Below, in pieces: positions 50,871 through 58,515 of a stretch of DNA of 64,000 bases. Made by a program: the position numbers and the translations under genes. Each line of letters starts with the position of its first letter. Positions within the stretch are counted from its first letter, which is position 1. The notes under the pieces were generated by a model. It had not been told where the DNA came from, searched no databases, and was given only the letters and a program-made list of their open reading frames with translations. The stretch is from Sharpea porci (GTDB taxonomy: Bacteria; Bacillota_I; Bacilli_A; Erysipelotrichales; Coprobacillaceae): the NCBI RefSeq assembly GCF_009695655.1, contig NZ_VUNM01000002.1, positions 124,001 to 188,000 on the forward strand, given 5' to 3'.

Positions 50871-51275
50871 ATGGCTATAAGGAAACTTAAACTTTATTCC
50901 AATATTGAAAAAACAAATGAAGATTTAGATGCTAATATGGAGATTGAACAAAGACTGACAATCAGTAATAATGGCAAAGTTGTCTTTTCTAGTTCACTCT
51001 ATGGTGATGGCTATGGTCATTATCATAAAGGACGTAAGGAAGAAGTGACAATTTCACAGGAAGCAGTTGAACAGATTTTTCATACGGTAGAAGAATTCTT
51101 TGCTTCACAGCCAAAATATAATATGCTTGCCGGATTTGGTATGTTTGATTTATCCATTCTTGGTGAAAAGAACCAGAATCATGAGTATTTTGCCTCAACT
51201 TCAGGCATTCATCATGAACTTACTCAATATGTTCAAAGACGCATACCTATTGATCATTTGATTCTCTTTGGCTAG
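50871..51275 (+). CDS. Hypothetical protein next to the nitroreductase
   Basis: 134 residues, soluble, predicted alpha/beta ('RLTISNNGKVVFSSSLYGDGYGHYHKGRKE'). No signal peptide or recognised motif. It starts 15 bases after the nitroreductase stop with GGTGGGG upstream, so the two are likely co-transcribed. Ends in a terminator. Confidence 0.6.
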   Translation: MAIRKLKLYSNIEKTNEDLDANMEIEQRLTISNNGKVVFSSSLYGDGYGHYHKGRKEEVTISQEAVEQIFHTVEEFFASQPKYNMLAGFGMFDLSILGEKNQNHEYFASTSGIHHELTQYVQRRIPIDHLILFG

Positions 51276-52080: not shown

Positions 52081-52091
52081 GAGGGGAAATG

Positions 52092-52637
52092 ATGGATAAT
52101 GAATTAATTCTTTTAGAATGCGAAGAAAAAATGGAAAAAACAATTGAAGCATTCACACGTAATCTCGCAAATATCAGAACAGGTAGAGCAACACCTGCAA
52201 TGCTGGACAAGGTTATGGTGGAATATTATGGATCACCAACACCACTTAATCAGGTTGCTGGTGTCTCTGTACAGGAAGGTCGTCAGCTTGTCATCAAGGC
52301 TTATGATAAGAGTGCGATGAAAGAGATCGAAAGAGGTATCTATGAAGCAGACTTAGGCTTAACACCTCAGAATGATGGTACAGTCATTCGTATTAACGTA
52401 CCACCACTTACTGAAGATCGTCGTCGTGAACTTGTAAAACAGGTTAAGAAGGCTGCCGAAGATGCCAAAGTTGCCTTACGTAATGAAAGACGTAGAGCCA
52501 TCGATCAGATTTCTAAGGATAGCGATGAAGATGCAGTAAAAGACGGCAAAAATGATGTCCAGAAACTCATCGACAAATATACAAAGAAAATCGAAGAAGT
52601 TGCTAAAGCAAAAGAAGACGATTTAATGACAGTTTAG
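52092..52637 (+). CDS. frr: Ribosome recycling factor
   Basis: 181 residues, tRNA-shaped protein that splits post-termination ribosomes together with EF-G. 'NIRTGRATPAMLDKV', 'YYGSPTPLNQVA', 'IRINVPPLTEDRRREL' and 'VALRNERRRAID' are all conserved. The ATG at 52092 is five bases from GGAGGGG. In most Bacillota uppS follows directly; here a terminator and a 5-kb island intervene. Confidence 0.97.
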   Translation: MDNELILLECEEKMEKTIEAFTRNLANIRTGRATPAMLDKVMVEYYGSPTPLNQVAGVSVQEGRQLVIKAYDKSAMKEIERGIYEADLGLTPQNDGTVIRINVPPLTEDRRRELVKQVKKAAEDAKVALRNERRRAIDQISKDSDEDAVKDGKNDVQKLIDKYTKKIEEVAKAKEDDLMTV

Positions 52638-52646
52638 TCATGATCA

Positions 52647-52678
52647 CACTGAAGGTAGAAGATACTTTCAGTGTTTTT
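52647..52678 (+). terminator. Terminator after frr
   Basis: CACTGAAGGTA / TACTTTCAGTG 11-bp stem (one G-T pair) followed by five T's. It marks the left edge of the accessory island. Confidence 0.85.
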
Positions 52679-52775
52679 CTTTGCTTTAAAAGATTTTTCA
52701 AAAATGTGATATATATATTATGTGATTAACTAAAAGAGGGAGATGATTATTTATTGTGTAGAAAGTGAGAGAGAT

Positions 52776-53093
52776 ATGTTTTATTTGAAACAGTTTTGCT
52801 GCTTATTAAAAGCAAAGCGAAAGCTATTGATCTTGTTCTTGTATTATGCACTCATTGTGGCATGCATATTCTTCTATTATCATAAAGAATATGGAGCTAT
52901 TGATGTGAAGGAATTAGAGGTAATAAAGACTGATCCAGTTCTTGGCCTGAACTTCTTCTATACGTTGCAACAACCAGGCATGACACTCATCAAATTCCTG
53001 CTAACCTGTCTCCTGGTTCCCAATATCATCAGTGCCGATTTCTTGGTTCTTAAACATAATCAATTTGTAAATGTCAATAAAGTTAATGCATGA
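52776..53093 (+). pseudogene. Truncated copy of the island's ABC permease gene
   Basis: The first roughly 95 residues are almost identical to the N-terminus of the 288-residue permease encoded at 55221 (for example 'VACIFFYYHKEYGAIDVKEL' and 'NFFYTLQQPGMTLIKF'), and the DNA is also very similar. Homology stops near 53065 ('KHNQF'); ten unrelated residues and a stop follow. It keeps the first two membrane helices only. It is most simply the 5' remnant of a duplicated exporter gene, cut by a rearrangement next to a decayed transposase; expression is possible but function is doubtful. Confidence 0.8.
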
Positions 53094-53553
53094 TAAGCTA
53101 GACAATTCTCTTAGTAAATTGTAGTTTTCTGTTTTTTGTTGAAGTAGCTCATATTTGAAACCATTTATCACGATGTTAATAAACATATATATAAGATATA
53201 TATAATGTGTTTAAAATATCAAATAACCACAATATAAATCACTTTATTTAAGATAGATATTGAAAAAATGTATAAAATATGTTTTATTATTTATGAGAAC
53301 AAAACATAATTTGATAAGGAAAAATTACCATTAATATTGAAAATCCCGTCTTTCTATACAATAAAGGCATAATTTCTTAGGAGAATTATACTATCATAAG
53401 CATACTGAAATCTAATAGGGAACAACTCTCAGTAAGTAATTTTTAAAGTTTCGAAATATAATCCTGTATATGGGATTTAAACGATTCTTCTGGGTGACCT
53501 CTTTCTTGAATCAAGGCTACAATAATCTCATATAACGAAGGAAGGACGCTACA
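53094..53553. other. AT-rich non-coding stretch within the island
   Basis: 460 bases without a credible gene. Very AT-rich at 53180-53340 with several TATA-like blocks. It may hold the left end of the decayed insertion element, but I could not find clear terminal inverted repeats. Confidence 0.5.
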
Positions 53554-54441
53554 ATGAAGAAAAGATTCCACCAGTACGCAAAAACCAAGCCTGGTAAGGA
53601 CTCACTAGTTGACTTCACCAGAAGATTTTTTTGATGAAAATAAGAAGGTGGATTTCTTCATGTCAGTAAAGTTACCTGAATGATTCGTATATAACAAATG
53701 TGAATGCCAAGTGCATCATCTCATCAATAGAAGTGACATCAAGAATAGTTACATCCTTCAGTGCAAGAAAGTTGGGAAGCAGCAGACTTGCTTCGTTGAC
53801 ACTATCCTTGATAATTCAAATCAAACACTTGTCCAGATCATTCCTCAGCTTTATCTCTTCTTCACTAGTAACAGAGTCCCTAGAACGGCTGATTCTGCCA
53901 ATAACATCGATGTCTTAGTAAAGACAAGGAGGATGCCTTAGAAAATTAAGGAGTCTAATGGCCGAAAGCAATAATGAGAAGAACCTGAAATCAATGTTCC
54001 ATGAAGCTGATATCATTGAACTTAATGGGAGAGATCAAGGCTATAAGCGAGGAAAAGGCTCAGAGAACAAGCAGCAATTGTTGGTAGTTCTTTCTGCTGG
54101 TGAAGACAACAAGTATCCCGGTACATGAAGCTTTATGTCCATCTAGGCGATTAATCTTGCTATATTAGAAACTTCGTGTTTAAGTAGGTCGTCATGGACA
54201 ATCACTGTAAGGTATCCACTGATAGCGATACATGCTTCATGTGTATGAAGGACTATATAGAACTATTGTAGCAAGTAACTTTGAGAACAATATCTAGAAC
54301 ATCTACAGGGGTATCTGCAAGAGATACCTTCCGCTGCTGCTAGCTGAATAGGAGTCCAGTTTTAACCTTAGATATATGGGAAGACACTTTATGGAGAAGA
54401 TAAAGAAGTATATCAGGAAGTCCGTGCCTATGACTAATTAG
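53554..54441 (+). mobile_element. Degenerate IS1595-type (ISXO2-like) transposase pseudogene
   Basis: Roughly 890 bases that would encode a transposase of about 295 residues but contain several frameshifts and stops. Fragments still align in order with the IS1595 pattern: an N-terminal segment ('DSLVDFTRRFF' then 'DENKKVDFFM' after a frameshift in a T run at about 53630), a zinc-ribbon remnant ('NKCECQ', 'ILQCKKVGKQ'), 'DTILDNS', and the DDE-domain start 'GYKRGKGSENKQQLLVVLS'. A C-terminal piece ends at 54441. It is clearly inactive. Family assignment is by eye. Confidence 0.65.
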
Positions 54442-54733
54442 TCCGTTGGCAATGGTGAATTGTAAGATTTAATGTTTTTTCGTTCTTATGTAGAAAAAAT
54501 TGCGATAAGTCCTTATTAGAAAAAATTGAAAAACTATTTAATGAAATATCTTCAAACTAAAAGAACATAAAATAAAAAAATGTAGCAAGCAAATTACAAT
54601 CAATAGATTACAAAATTATTTAAGACAGTTAGGAAAGGATGGTGAAAATATATGATGATAATGAATGGCTTTTATGCTATTCAATATCATATTAATAGTC
54701 TTATTTATTAATATAAACAGAAAGGAAAAAAGT
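54442..54733. other. AT-rich upstream region of the secreted-protein gene
   Basis: 292 bases, strongly AT-rich. A tiny reading frame preceded by GGAAAGGATGGTG begins at 54653 (ATGATGATAATG) and stops after 19 codons; it may be a leader peptide or chance. No convincing -35/-10 pair could be fixed. Confidence 0.4.
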
Positions 54734-55150
54734 ATGAGAAAAATTTATTTTAGCTTTTTATGTGTGATTGCGATAATAACCATTGCAATGGTATCTGTTA
54801 ATGCTGATATAAAAAATGGAACTTCATGGCAAATTGCTGAGTATGTCGATGTATCTCCACATGGTGGAACAAAATATAATTTAGCGCAGGGTTCAAAGAA
54901 AACAACAACAAGTGATTACGGATCAATGAAAGCATCTTTTGGTGCTATCTTGTCTCCTTATGGTCGTTTTATTACTAAAGGTAAAGCAAATCGCTCAGAA
55001 GCAATTTCACTTTCTTCATCAGTCAAACATCCTAAACTTTATAATACAGCTGATAAGGGTGATGTTTTATATACAAAGATATCAACTAATTCATTAGACC
55101 CTGGTTATATTGAAGTATCATTGAAATTCTCTTCTGACTATTTAAGTTAG
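54734..55150 (+). CDS. Small secreted protein, possible bacteriocin-like product of the island
   Basis: 138 residues. A textbook Sec signal peptide (RK at 2-3, hydrophobic core 4-22, V-N-A cleavage after residue 24) leads a 114-residue mature part. That part is Cys-free, rich in Ser, Lys, Gly and Tyr, and probably beta-structured ('GTSWQIAEYVDVSPHGGTKYN', 'YIEVSLKFSSDYLS'). The ATG at 54734 has AAAGGA upstream; a longer in-frame start at 54665 lacks a site. The size, signal peptide and adjacent exporter operon recall lactococcin 972-type loci, but I see no firm sequence match. Function unknown. Confidence 0.65.
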   Translation: MRKIYFSFLCVIAIITIAMVSVNADIKNGTSWQIAEYVDVSPHGGTKYNLAQGSKKTTTSDYGSMKASFGAILSPYGRFITKGKANRSEAISLSSSVKHPKLYNTADKGDVLYTKISTNSLDPGYIEVSLKFSSDYLS

Positions 55151-55159
55151 TATTTTAAA

Positions 55160-55191
55160 GAAAGAATAGTCTATGATTAGACTATTCTTTC
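55160..55191 (+). terminator. Strong hairpin between the secreted-protein gene and the exporter operon
   Basis: A perfect 14-bp stem (arms 55160-55173 and 55178-55191) with loop TGAT; a T run follows only after CTCCTG, so it may attenuate and not fully terminate, giving more secreted protein than exporter. Confidence 0.7.
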
Positions 55192-55220
55192 CTCCTGTTT
55201 TTTATTATTTAGGAGGGTAT

Positions 55221-56087
55221 ATGTTCTATAATAAAAATTTTTGCTTCTTAATAAAAACGAAGCGAAAGCTATTGATCTTGTTGTTGTATTATGCACTCAT
55301 TGTGGCATGCATATTCTTCTATTATCATAAAGAATATGGAGCTATTGATGTGAAAGAATTAGAGGTGATAAAGAATGATCCAGTACTTGGCCTGAACTTC
55401 TTCTATACTTTGCAACAGCCAGGCATGACACTTATCAAATTCCTGCTTACATGTCTCCTGATTCCCAATATCATAAGTGCCGATTTTTTAGTTCTTAAAC
55501 ATAATCATTTTACTGATTTCATCAAAACACGTATTTCTACAAAATCCTATTTTCAAGCCGCAAAGTTCATCAATTTTATCAGCACATTCTTGATCACATT
55601 ATTGATGCATCTTGTAACATTACTTGTCATTCATCTCTTTTTCTTCAAAATCACATTTCATCAAGTGAACATACCAGTAGAAAGCATATTAAATATGTTT
55701 TCTTCCAACATCTTGATGAATCTGATGATCTATATACTCTTATCATCTCTTGGTTTTGCGGTTTTTTCGCATTTCGTTTATGCACTCCAGGCATTCATCA
55801 AGAATACTTATCTCTATCGAACAATGGGTTTGATGAGTGCCTTAATACTATATACGGGATCATTTTTATTAGTGAAGTTGGCATTTGATCTTCATCTAGG
55901 CATTGTTGTTAGGATAATACTCTACATGACTTGTATTCCTAATATTCTTGTTCCAGGTATGGAAGAGAGTGTTTATATTGGCCAGTATCGTCTTGTTCAT
56001 TATCTAGGTACGCTTGTGCTGTATTTGATTGTTTCAAATATTCTTTTTACACTAAGAGAGCGGTGGGAATATGCGTCTGGTAGGTAA
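55221..56087 (+). CDS. ABC-2-like membrane protein (exporter permease 1)
   Basis: 288 residues with about six or seven membrane helices (about 14-33, 67-86, 113-139, 163-188, 199-219, 228-245, 260-278) and no ATPase motif. A strong AGGAGGG site precedes the ATG at 55221. Its N-terminal third is duplicated at 52776. It overlaps the next membrane gene by 17 bases. Together with the ATPase at 56584 it probably forms an ABC exporter; whether the cargo is the secreted protein upstream or an antimicrobial lipid/peptide is unknown. Confidence 0.75.
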   Translation: MFYNKNFCFLIKTKRKLLILLLYYALIVACIFFYYHKEYGAIDVKELEVIKNDPVLGLNFFYTLQQPGMTLIKFLLTCLLIPNIISADFLVLKHNHFTDFIKTRISTKSYFQAAKFINFISTFLITLLMHLVTLLVIHLFFFKITFHQVNIPVESILNMFSSNILMNLMIYILLSSLGFAVFSHFVYALQAFIKNTYLYRTMGLMSALILYTGSFLLVKLAFDLHLGIVVRIILYMTCIPNILVPGMEESVYIGQYRLVHYLGTLVLYLIVSNILFTLRERWEYASGR

Positions 56088-56571
56088 GTTGTTGCGTCTT
56101 GTCAGAAAGAGAGAAATAGTTTTACTTATAATATTATTAGCCTTTTTTCCTGTTGTTGTTGGTAAGCGGGATCTCAGGAATTTCATGGCTGTTTCACTCT
56201 ATTTCAATTATCCAACCTTGATCATCAATAATATCTTTCTCGTAATCTTGTATAAAAAGATGCAAGTGCTCAACCGTATGCAGTATATGCTTATTACACG
56301 TGTTGGATTAAAAAGAAGTAAGCTTGCTGTCCATGGCTTCGTGTCATTAGCTACGTTTGTGTTGATGATGGTGCTTTATGGCTTGCTTATGCTGTTGTAT
56401 GGCACACAGGAAATAACAGCTCATCTCGTTATGTTGTTTTTGATTGAAAGTGTTCTTTATTTCTTAGAAGCAAATATTATAGCCTTGCAGTTTCATCGTC
56501 AAAAACAGGTCTTGTTTGTCATTATCGCCATTATTATAAATCTGGGATTTCATTATATCTTTGTGCTTTGA
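56071..56571 (+). CDS. Membrane protein (exporter subunit 2)
   Basis: 166 residues, about four or five helices ('IVLLIILLAFFPVVV', 'TLIINNIFLVILYKKM', 'ATFVLMMVLYGLLMLLYG', 'VLFVIIAIIINLGFHYIF') with Arg-rich cytoplasmic loops. It overlaps the previous gene by 17 bases and lies 12 bases before the ATPase. Half-size membrane subunits like this occur in bacteriocin-immunity and lantibiotic-export ABC systems. No named family recognised. Confidence 0.65.
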   Translation: MRLVGKLLRLVRKREIVLLIILLAFFPVVVGKRDLRNFMAVSLYFNYPTLIINNIFLVILYKKMQVLNRMQYMLITRVGLKRSKLAVHGFVSLATFVLMMVLYGLLMLLYGTQEITAHLVMLFLIESVLYFLEANIIALQFHRQKQVLFVIIAIIINLGFHYIFVL

Positions 56572-56583
56572 GGAGGGAGAGAA

Positions 56584-57189
56584 ATGTATTTATTGAAGTG
56601 TGAAGGGATCTCTAAAAGCTTTAAGTCATTACATGTTCTTGATGATATCAATCTTACAGTAAATCCAGGGGATTGCCTCTATATTCATGGTAAGAATGGC
56701 TGTGGGAAATCCACATTGTTTAAGATTATTTGTGATATTCTTCAGGCTGATCAGGGACAGATCGTTAAGTCAGAGGATTTATCGATTGGTGCGCTTATTG
56801 AAAATCCTGGTTTTATTGAAGAGGAGAGCCTGCATTATAACTTAGCTTTTCTAGCTGATCTTAAAAACCATTATGATGAACAACGTATAAGGGAGTTGTG
56901 TGCGCTATTTCAACTAGATTATGACAATCGTTCACCAATGAAAAGCTATTCAGTAGGGATGAGACAGAAGGCTGGCATTATTCAGGCTGTTATGGAAAAT
57001 CAGAACTGCATTTTATTTGATGAACCAACAAGAGGGCTGGACAAAGAAGCAATTGAACAATTTGAACATCTTATCAATGATCTTATAGAGAAGGGCTGCT
57101 GTGTCATTATTGCCTCCCACGATTATTTGCCCAATGTCCATTATACAAAAACATACTTATTAGAAAGTGGGAAGTTGATGGCAGAATGA
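56584..57189 (+). CDS. ABC transporter ATP-binding protein
   Basis: 201 residues, compact. Walker A 'HGKNGCGKSTL' near 38, Q-loop region 'GALIENPGF', signature 'SYSVGMRQK' near 122 (variant of LSGGQ, as in bacitracin/lantibiotic-type exporters), Walker B 'CILFDEPTRGLD' near 145 and H-loop 'IIASHD'. It energises the membrane proteins encoded on either side. GAGGGAG precedes the ATG; it overlaps the next gene by four bases. Confidence 0.92.
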   Translation: MYLLKCEGISKSFKSLHVLDDINLTVNPGDCLYIHGKNGCGKSTLFKIICDILQADQGQIVKSEDLSIGALIENPGFIEEESLHYNLAFLADLKNHYDEQRIRELCALFQLDYDNRSPMKSYSVGMRQKAGIIQAVMENQNCILFDEPTRGLDKEAIEQFEHLINDLIEKGCCVIIASHDYLPNVHYTKTYLLESGKLMAE

Positions 57190-57677
57190 AAAGGTTAGGA
57201 AAAGATTTCTTGGCAATCTCTTTGCTGCTGATTATTTGTAAGTATGCTTTAAAGATTGATGCTCAGGATTATGCCTTGATTAGATATTTCTTTCCCAAAC
57301 GTGTCATCCATATAGCTATTGCTATCATTCTCAATTATTTCTATCTCAAGATTGTCTTTGATTGCATGCGGGATGATATTGAGATGGAGACATTCATTAG
57401 CATCAGGCTAGGAAGAAAAGAGCTCTTGAAGAGGCTTTTGAAGAGTGTTGGCTTGTATACTGTTAGCTTCCTTGCTGTTTCTCTTGTTCTTGATGGCTTG
57501 CTTTATCAAAAAGTATATGTCTCCGGTTTAGTATTTATGCTTATCTTAGAGCTAGCTGCTGGCGCTATGTTAGCTTTAGGCTATCGGAGTCTCAAAAGCT
57601 ATACTTTTATGAGTGTACTTGTAGTTGTTGTAATCGTAAGATTGGTGATGTCTGCTATTTATCTTTCGTTGAGATGA
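57186..57677 (+). CDS. Membrane protein (exporter subunit 3)
   Basis: 163 residues with about four helices ('FLAISLLLIICKYAL', 'VIHIAIAIILNYFYLKIVF', 'YTVSFLAVSLVLDGLLY', 'LVFMLILELAAGAMLALGY', 'FMSVLVVVVIVRLVM'). Its ATG overlaps the ATPase stop (ATGA). The segment 'FISIRLGRKELLKRLLKSVG' parallels 'MLITRVGLKRSKLAVHG' in subunit 2, so the two small subunits may be distant paralogues forming a heterodimeric membrane part. Function inferred from the operon. Confidence 0.65.
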   Translation: MKRLGKDFLAISLLLIICKYALKIDAQDYALIRYFFPKRVIHIAIAIILNYFYLKIVFDCMRDDIEMETFISIRLGRKELLKRLLKSVGLYTVSFLAVSLVLDGLLYQKVYVSGLVFMLILELAAGAMLALGYRSLKSYTFMSVLVVVVIVRLVMSAIYLSLR

Positions 57678-57692
57678 TGAAATATGGAGATA

Positions 57693-57724
57693 AAGTCTTT
57701 GAGTATGGGCTCAAGGGCTTTTTT
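57693..57724 (+). terminator. Terminator at the right edge of the island
   Basis: AAGTCTTTGAG-TATGGG-CTCAAGGGCTT (with G-T pairs) followed by six T's. Confidence 0.8.
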
Positions 57725-57727
57725 GTT

Positions 57728-57755
57728 TTGAAAGAGGGTCTAACTATGGTATACT
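57728..57755 (+). promoter_or_regulatory. Predicted promoter of uppS-cdsA-dxr-rseP
   Basis: TTGAAA (57728-57733), a 16-base spacer ending in TGG (extended -10) and TATACT (57750-57755). Confidence 0.65.
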
Positions 57756-57777
57756 TGCTTAAGTAGAGGTGAACATT

Positions 57778-58515
57778 ATGGCATTAGAAAATGAAGATTA
57801 TCAACTCGATATGAATAATATTCCTAAACATATCGCTTTTATCATGGATGGTAATCGTACCTGGGCGAGAGCACATCATAAGCCTAAATATTTTGGCCAT
57901 CATGAAGGTACAAAAGCTATTCGTAGGGTGGCTTTAGAAGCAAATAAGTTAGGCGTTCAGGCCATGACAGTCTATGCTTTTTCAACGGAGAACTTTAAAA
58001 GGGAAGCTAATGAAGTCAACTATATCTTTAAATTGCCTGAAGAATTCTTCAGCAAGTATATCAAGGAGCTCATTGATAATAATGTGCAAATATTGACAAT
58101 TGGACATCTTGAGATGGCTCCTGAAAGCACTCAAAAAATTATTCAAAGAGCAATTGATGATACGAAAAATAATACTGGCTTAAAGCTTGTCTTTGCCTTT
58201 ATTTATGGTGGACGTGATGAGATTGTCTATGCGACAAAGCAAATTGCTCAGGAAGTCAAAGAAGGTAAGCTCGCTATTGATGATATCAATGAAGATGTCT
58301 TTGAAAGTCATCTTATGACAGCCAATCTTCCTCCTGTTGATCTTATGATCAGAAGCTCAGGAGAAGTGCGCTTGTCCAACTTCCTCTTATGGCAGCTGAG
58401 TTATGCGGAATTTATCTTTGATGATACGTTGTGGCCTGATTTTGATGAAAATGTCTTACATCGTGATATTTATCTTTATCAACAGCGCAGTCGTCGCTTT
58501 GGAGGAGGCAAATAA
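57778..58515 (+). CDS. uppS: Undecaprenyl diphosphate synthase (cis-prenyltransferase)
   Basis: 245 residues. Condenses isopentenyl-PP onto farnesyl-PP to make the C55 carrier for wall synthesis. The catalytic Asp is in 'IAFIMDGNRTWARAHH' (the usual DGNGRW reads DGNRTW here), and the C-terminal 'RSSGEVRLSNFLLWQLSYAE' binding motif is intact. The ATG at 57778 follows AGAGGTG; a GTG at 57769 overlaps that site. First gene of the lipid-carrier operon, now separated from frr by the island. Confidence 0.95.
   Translation: MALENEDYQLDMNNIPKHIAFIMDGNRTWARAHHKPKYFGHHEGTKAIRRVALEANKLGVQAMTVYAFSTENFKREANEVNYIFKLPEEFFSKYIKELIDNNVQILTIGHLEMAPESTQKIIQRAIDDTKNNTGLKLVFAFIYGGRDEIVYATKQIAQEVKEGKLAIDDINEDVFESHLMTANLPPVDLMIRSSGEVRLSNFLLWQLSYAEFIFDDTLWPDFDENVLHRDIYLYQQRSRRFGGGK

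Follow-up and report, generated by a model that had tools for sequence, protein, structure and literature searches.

Self-protection exporters of the LanFEG type have two permeases of similar size. In the lactococcin 972/streptococcin loci (e.g. scbABC), a gene for a small protein, which is thought to be exported by the Sec pathway, is followed by predicted immunity-membrane and ABC-ATPase genes (PMC11796350). The YybJKL exporter of Bacillus subtilis combines one ATPase with different membrane subunits (PMC11466899). Here we analyze an island between frr and uppS in the window, which is the whole 64,000-nucleotide stretch of Sharpea porci DNA under study. The island carries the gene of a protein with an apparent signal peptide (Sec, encoded by sec) and a four-gene ABC exporter (permA-memB-ATPase-memC). 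We hold with moderate confidence that it encodes a bacteriocin-like secreted protein together with a dedicated self-protection exporter, a pair hitherto undescribed.

Results

Position and borders of the island

In the window, about 5.1 kb lie between frr (52089-52637) and uppS (57778-58515, with the start at 57769 or 57778). The genes and signals between them are, in order, the frr terminator, a truncated permease gene (permN), a decayed element, sec, a hairpin, permA, memB, the ATPase gene, memC and a second terminator. The initial annotation had described an accessory island of about 5 kb that splits the frr-uppS junction, and this description was borne out, all of its parts being present. 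The left border is the intrinsic terminator of frr (52646-52674, + strand), which has a stem of 12 pairs followed by a T-run; in relatives, a terminator is found at the equivalent place before uppS. The right border is the terminator 3' of memC (57692-57721, + strand). A promoter-like site of uppS is intact at 57728-57755. Since the frr terminator and this promoter-like site bracket the island, neither housekeeping unit is broken. Farther upstream, between a nitroreductase gene and pyrH, lies a gene for a 134-aa protein (50871-51275), which is kept in Sharpea azabuensis and gave no match in Pfam.

The frr-uppS interval was then compared between the genome of the window (G000), that of the sister species S. 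azabuensis DSM 18934 (G001) and other relatives. The same island was found in S. azabuensis and was absent outside Sharpea (30 related genomes compared); the island is thus confined to the two Sharpea species, and the same genes were not found between frr and uppS in all relatives. The frr-uppS order had been taken to be steady. This holds for 25 of the 28 loci outside Sharpea, where frr is directly beside uppS with a largest gap between matches of 166 bp, and one of the 28 uppS loci runs off its contig. Two genomes depart from it: G009 has two unrelated genes, MatE-like and hydrolase-like, in the junction (L158), and in G011 genes other than frr adjoin uppS. These facts indicate that the junction is steady but not sacrosanct, and that other insertions occur there.

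The truncated permease gene and the decayed element

The permN gene (52774-53073, + strand) is a truncated 5' copy of a permease gene, with 90% DNA identity over 300 bp to 55219-55518, and corresponds to the first 99 codons of permA. The truncated permease of the initial annotation is therefore present, and is an incomplete copy of the permease gene of the exporter, not a gene of another kind. The differences between permN and permA fall at third codon positions in 18 of 29 cases, which suggests that the two diverged at least partly under coding constraint. Judged from this pattern, permN is more likely to be what is left of a second, related permease gene than the product of a recent duplication.

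A multicopy element, now decayed and probably the remnant of an insertion sequence, occupies 53399-54536; its original gene is assumed to have been on the + strand. Copies that are 68-78% identical lie on three other contigs (C67, C34 and C40). Neither the element nor those copies that were examined retain a long open frame. A decayed transposase had been proposed here. The decayed multicopy element was confirmed, and an origin from a transposase is likely; the identification as a transposase has no confirmation from Pfam, which gave no match in the element.

Near-identity of the island in the two Sharpea species

The tract at 52643-57286 was exchanged between the two Sharpea species. Over its 4.6 kb there are nine substitutions and two small indels between the window and S. 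azabuensis, that is, 99.6-100% identity (about 99.8% overall), against about 92% in the flanks on both sides. The decayed element lies inside the tract. Near-identity in decayed DNA cannot be explained by selection, and we therefore concluded that the exchange was recent. It is possible that the near-identical tract reflects a chimeric assembly of the S. porci genome; the contig that carries it, however, is 243 kb long. The right end of the tract lies inside memC, the remainder of which differs by about 5%. This suggests that the cassette may already have been in both species before the swap. As the exchange demonstrates, recombination is able to move a module of this kind where the order of the housekeeping genes is conserved.

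The exporter

The exporter genes are all on the + strand. They encode PermA, a 288-aa permease (55221-56087; 304 aa if the start is at 55173) that has a family in relatives, the 166-aa membrane protein MemB (56071-56571), the 201-aa ABC ATPase (56584-57189) and the 163-aa membrane protein MemC (57186-57677), with sizes as given in the initial annotation. The frame of the ATPase is complete, and its match to Pfam ABC_tran (2.3e-24) covers 131 residues. A complete ABC ATPase and three hydrophobic partners in one operon are what is generally expected of an ABC exporter. A comparison of profiles shows MemB and MemC to be homologous (probability 90.7, E 1e-6, 152 columns), and PermA, MemB and MemC tend to have in common a loop with the pattern (I/T)R(I/V/L)(G/S)xK.

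The three membrane proteins gave no match in Pfam, NCBIfam or PHROGs. A PermA profile found nothing in the PDB, searches for permA in plasmids and viral contigs were negative, and the PermA structure predicted from one sequence alone (pLDDT 55) was of insufficient quality for a fold search. The best NCBIfam model for the ATPase was TIGR03740 (lantibiotic protection), at 121.4 bits against a cut-off of 309.75; the same model ranks first for the ATPases of distant cassettes. The lactococcin-972 type model TIGR03608 gave 91.3 bits and fails its cut-off of 254.85. Matches in PADLOC were generic P-loop matches and were discarded. As had been proposed, the exporter matches no named system, its membrane proteins having no family and its ATPase scoring below the cut-offs. 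A clear match to a characterised housekeeping transporter was likewise not found.

Among the tested family genomes, permA is present in 16 of 37. It also occurs in more distant members of Erysipelotrichales, and when 392 genomes sampled from the phylum were scanned, every match lay within this order. The order permA-memB-ATPase-memC is kept in most loci; memB is missing in L138 and L141, and memC in L042. The permA-ATPase-memC cassettes of L138 and L141 (G008 and G023) stand beside two large fused ABC proteins, for which TIGR03608 is the best NCBIfam model, again below its cut-off. At L042 (G001:C8), S. azabuensis has an intact paralogous permA-memB-ATPase cassette with an adjacent kinase and regulator. 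In the genome of the window, the paralogous cassette (L040, G000:C56) is disrupted: a truncated memB lies beside an IS200/IS605-like gene pair, and the permA and regulator genes are missing.

The predicted secreted protein and its association with the exporter

The sec gene (54734-55150, + strand) encodes a 138-aa protein with a lone N-terminal hydrophobic segment. The N-terminus is basic and is followed by the hydrophobic stretch and a cleavage-like site, VNA|DI; the signal peptide was called from hydropathy and this site, without a dedicated predictor. The mature part is about 114 aa long and has a calculated pI of about 9.4. The Sec family (n=17) is highly divergent, with 20-30% identity among its members. 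Their mature parts are mostly neutral to basic, and a C-terminal EPS...KFSA-like motif recurs. Two cysteines are found in the mature part of many members and none in that of the Sharpea protein.

No family match for Sec was obtained in Pfam, NCBIfam or PHROGs; the 17 members were scanned one by one with E up to 1 in Pfam and up to 0.1 in NCBIfam. A known bacteriocin resembling Sec was not found in the libraries searched, nor was Sec found in phages, plasmids or viral contigs. The structure predicted from a four-row alignment (pLDDT 30) was not good enough to search for similar folds. Perfrin, a candidate relative, was rejected because its anatomy is different and the perfrin paper mentions no ABC partner. 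Between sec and permA there is a perfect 14-bp hairpin with a T-rich tail (55160-55191, + strand), a possible partial terminator.

The combination of sec and the exporter is a recurrent module in Erysipelotrichales. At six loci outside Sharpea (L055, L056, L057, L139, L140 and L144), sec precedes permA on the same strand with a gap of 0-115 bp, which at L140 is 2 bp. At L135, the two genes are divergent and 236 bp apart, and L143 has one further sec candidate, which aligns weakly. The L135 locus belongs to a more distant genome (L135:8551-10258 of G405); there the genes after sec encode a 122-aa protein and a BlaR1-like sensor, and we saw no LytTR pair, which suggests a different regulator. 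Co-occurrence was examined as the initial annotation had recommended: sec was found in 12 of the 37 tested family genomes, and all 12 have permA. Four genomes (G013, G015, G016 and G008) have permA without detectable sec.

Operator-like words and LytTR regulators

In relatives, genes for a LytTR response regulator and a GHKL kinase adjoin sec or permA. Eight genomes have sec unlinked to the exporter. There, sec stands next to genes for a kinase (with a split or short frame in some genomes) and a LytTR response regulator; the exporter is close to genes for purine synthesis and is transcribed divergently from another LytTR gene. The word GTGCAYTTTT or a one-mismatch form of it occurs 67-101 bp upstream of both sec and the exporter in seven of these eight genomes, which are related and do not represent eight independent events. 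The word was chosen from the exporter promoters, and the sec promoters served as the test set. Of 17 exact occurrences in about 433 kb (both strands), 14 lie in these promoters.

In the genome G007, the word is absent at both genes. Its sec and exporter promoters have instead an exact 16-mer in common, GTAAAATTTATCCAAT, and shared words of 6-9 were found between the G007 promoter and the exporter promoters of other genomes. This concordant switch of words is hard to explain without co-regulation of sec and the exporter. Direct repeats about 21 bp apart are found upstream in several loci. The LytTR regulators may bind the shared operator-like words. That Sec and the exporter belong together, as first proposed from the window, is now well supported by recurrent adjacency in other genera, by co-occurrence within genomes and by the operator-like sequences common to both where the genes are unlinked.

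In the Sharpea island, two-component genes, their remnants and a LytTR operator were sought and not found. The Sharpea copy may therefore not be expressed. The genome of the window has six LytTR matches elsewhere. The one nearest to the cassette regulators (about 30% identity) is on contig C77, beside a different multi-permease ABC operon. This second LytTR two-component pair (L155, G000:C77:19000-31000) is divergent from the ABC operon, which encodes an ATPase of 214 aa and membrane-type proteins of 284, 221, 268 and 231 aa. L142 and L143 have a similar arrangement.

Discussion

The function suggested at the outset was bacteriocin/self-protection or envelope export. A bacteriocin/self-protection role, the reading that we prefer, is deduced from the kinship of the ATPase, the signal peptide and the genomic context. 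Sec would be exported via the general Sec pathway by its signal peptide and then cleaved. The unmodified protein of about 114 residues would be released and would act on the envelope of competitor bacteria. PermA and the homologous small MemB and MemC, powered by the product of the one ATPase gene, would expel Sec from the membrane of the producer. In relatives, LytTR response regulators would control the sec and exporter genes through shared operators. The Sharpea module lacks a local regulator, has the truncated permease copy and the decayed element upstream of it, and moved recently between species by recombination.

More tentatively, and with slightly less than even expectation, we suggest that Sec founds a new class of antibacterial proteins, which would be about 110 residues long, secreted without modification and spread across Erysipelotrichales. 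Each would be served by its own immunity exporter, whose subunit layout, with a large permease and two small homologous ones, would also be new, and LytTR regulation would couple sec and exporter genes that are unlinked. If this is true, Sharpea, Massilimicrobiota, Stoquefichus and related bacteria of the gut and rumen own an antagonism system that is unnamed by the databases searched.

The main rival is an envelope-defence module, in which a LytTR-controlled exporter clears bacitracin-like compounds or antimicrobial peptides of foreign origin, and Sec, not itself toxic, protects the producer as a secreted decoy or by binding to the envelope. The kinship of the ATPase to protection-type transporters, the genomes with the exporter and no detectable sec, and the LytTR systems adjoining both sec and exporter are all in keeping with such a role. 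A co-regulated and highly divergent sec, however, fits a diversifying antagonist at least as well, and we regard envelope defence as unlikely, though deserving of attention.

It is improbable, in our estimation, that the ABC complex is the secretion route for Sec, or for an unseen small peptide, instead of an immunity pump. The adjacency and co-regulation of the genes would suit a secretion route, and the models related to the ATPase include those of export systems (TIGR03608 and PmtC). Sec, however, needs no dedicated exporter because of its apparent signal peptide, and neither a leader-peptidase domain nor a small peptide gene was found beside the cassette. We also doubt strongly that the Sharpea cassette is an unexpressed relic kept by chance: the truncated permease copy, the decayed element, the lack of an adjacent two-component system or operator and the disrupted paralogous cassette of the same genome would agree with this, but its five genes are intact, the ATPase frame is complete and the tract spread recently between two species, though neutral spread is also possible.

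Comparison with known systems

Returning to the bacteriocin-like reading, we compared the cassette with the systems described above. It resembles the lactococcin 972/streptococcin loci in having a small Sec-type protein followed by membrane and ATPase genes, and a Sec-pathway signal peptide, which is a mark of the lactococcin-972 family along with antibacterial activity and a beta-sandwich fold, is seen in Sec by hydropathy and the cleavage-like site. The cassette differs in its three membrane subunits without a family and in the absence of a large FtsX-type membrane protein, and the lactococcin-972 profile (Pfam, NCBIfam) matched none of the 17 Sec members. Like the LanFEG-type exporters, the cassette has one ATPase gene and several permease genes; unlike them, it has one large and two small homologous permeases. 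PermA, MemB and MemC gave no Pfam or NCBIfam match to the LanE/LanG permease families, no lanthipeptide enzymes were found near the cassette, and no peptidase-type bacteriocin exporter domain was found in it. Because these sequence tests failed, we did not file Sec and the exporter under lactococcin 972 or LanFEG.

The likeness to YybJKL is one of layout only; no secreted partner is reported for that exporter (PMC11466899). The AgrA/LytTR-GHKL systems are alike in that a LytTR regulator and a GHKL kinase stand beside the genes in relatives; they differ in that no pheromone gene was identified here and the Sharpea island carries no regulator. On the simplest account, the cassette would work in the manner of the lactococcin 972/streptococcin loci and also of LanFEG-type protection.
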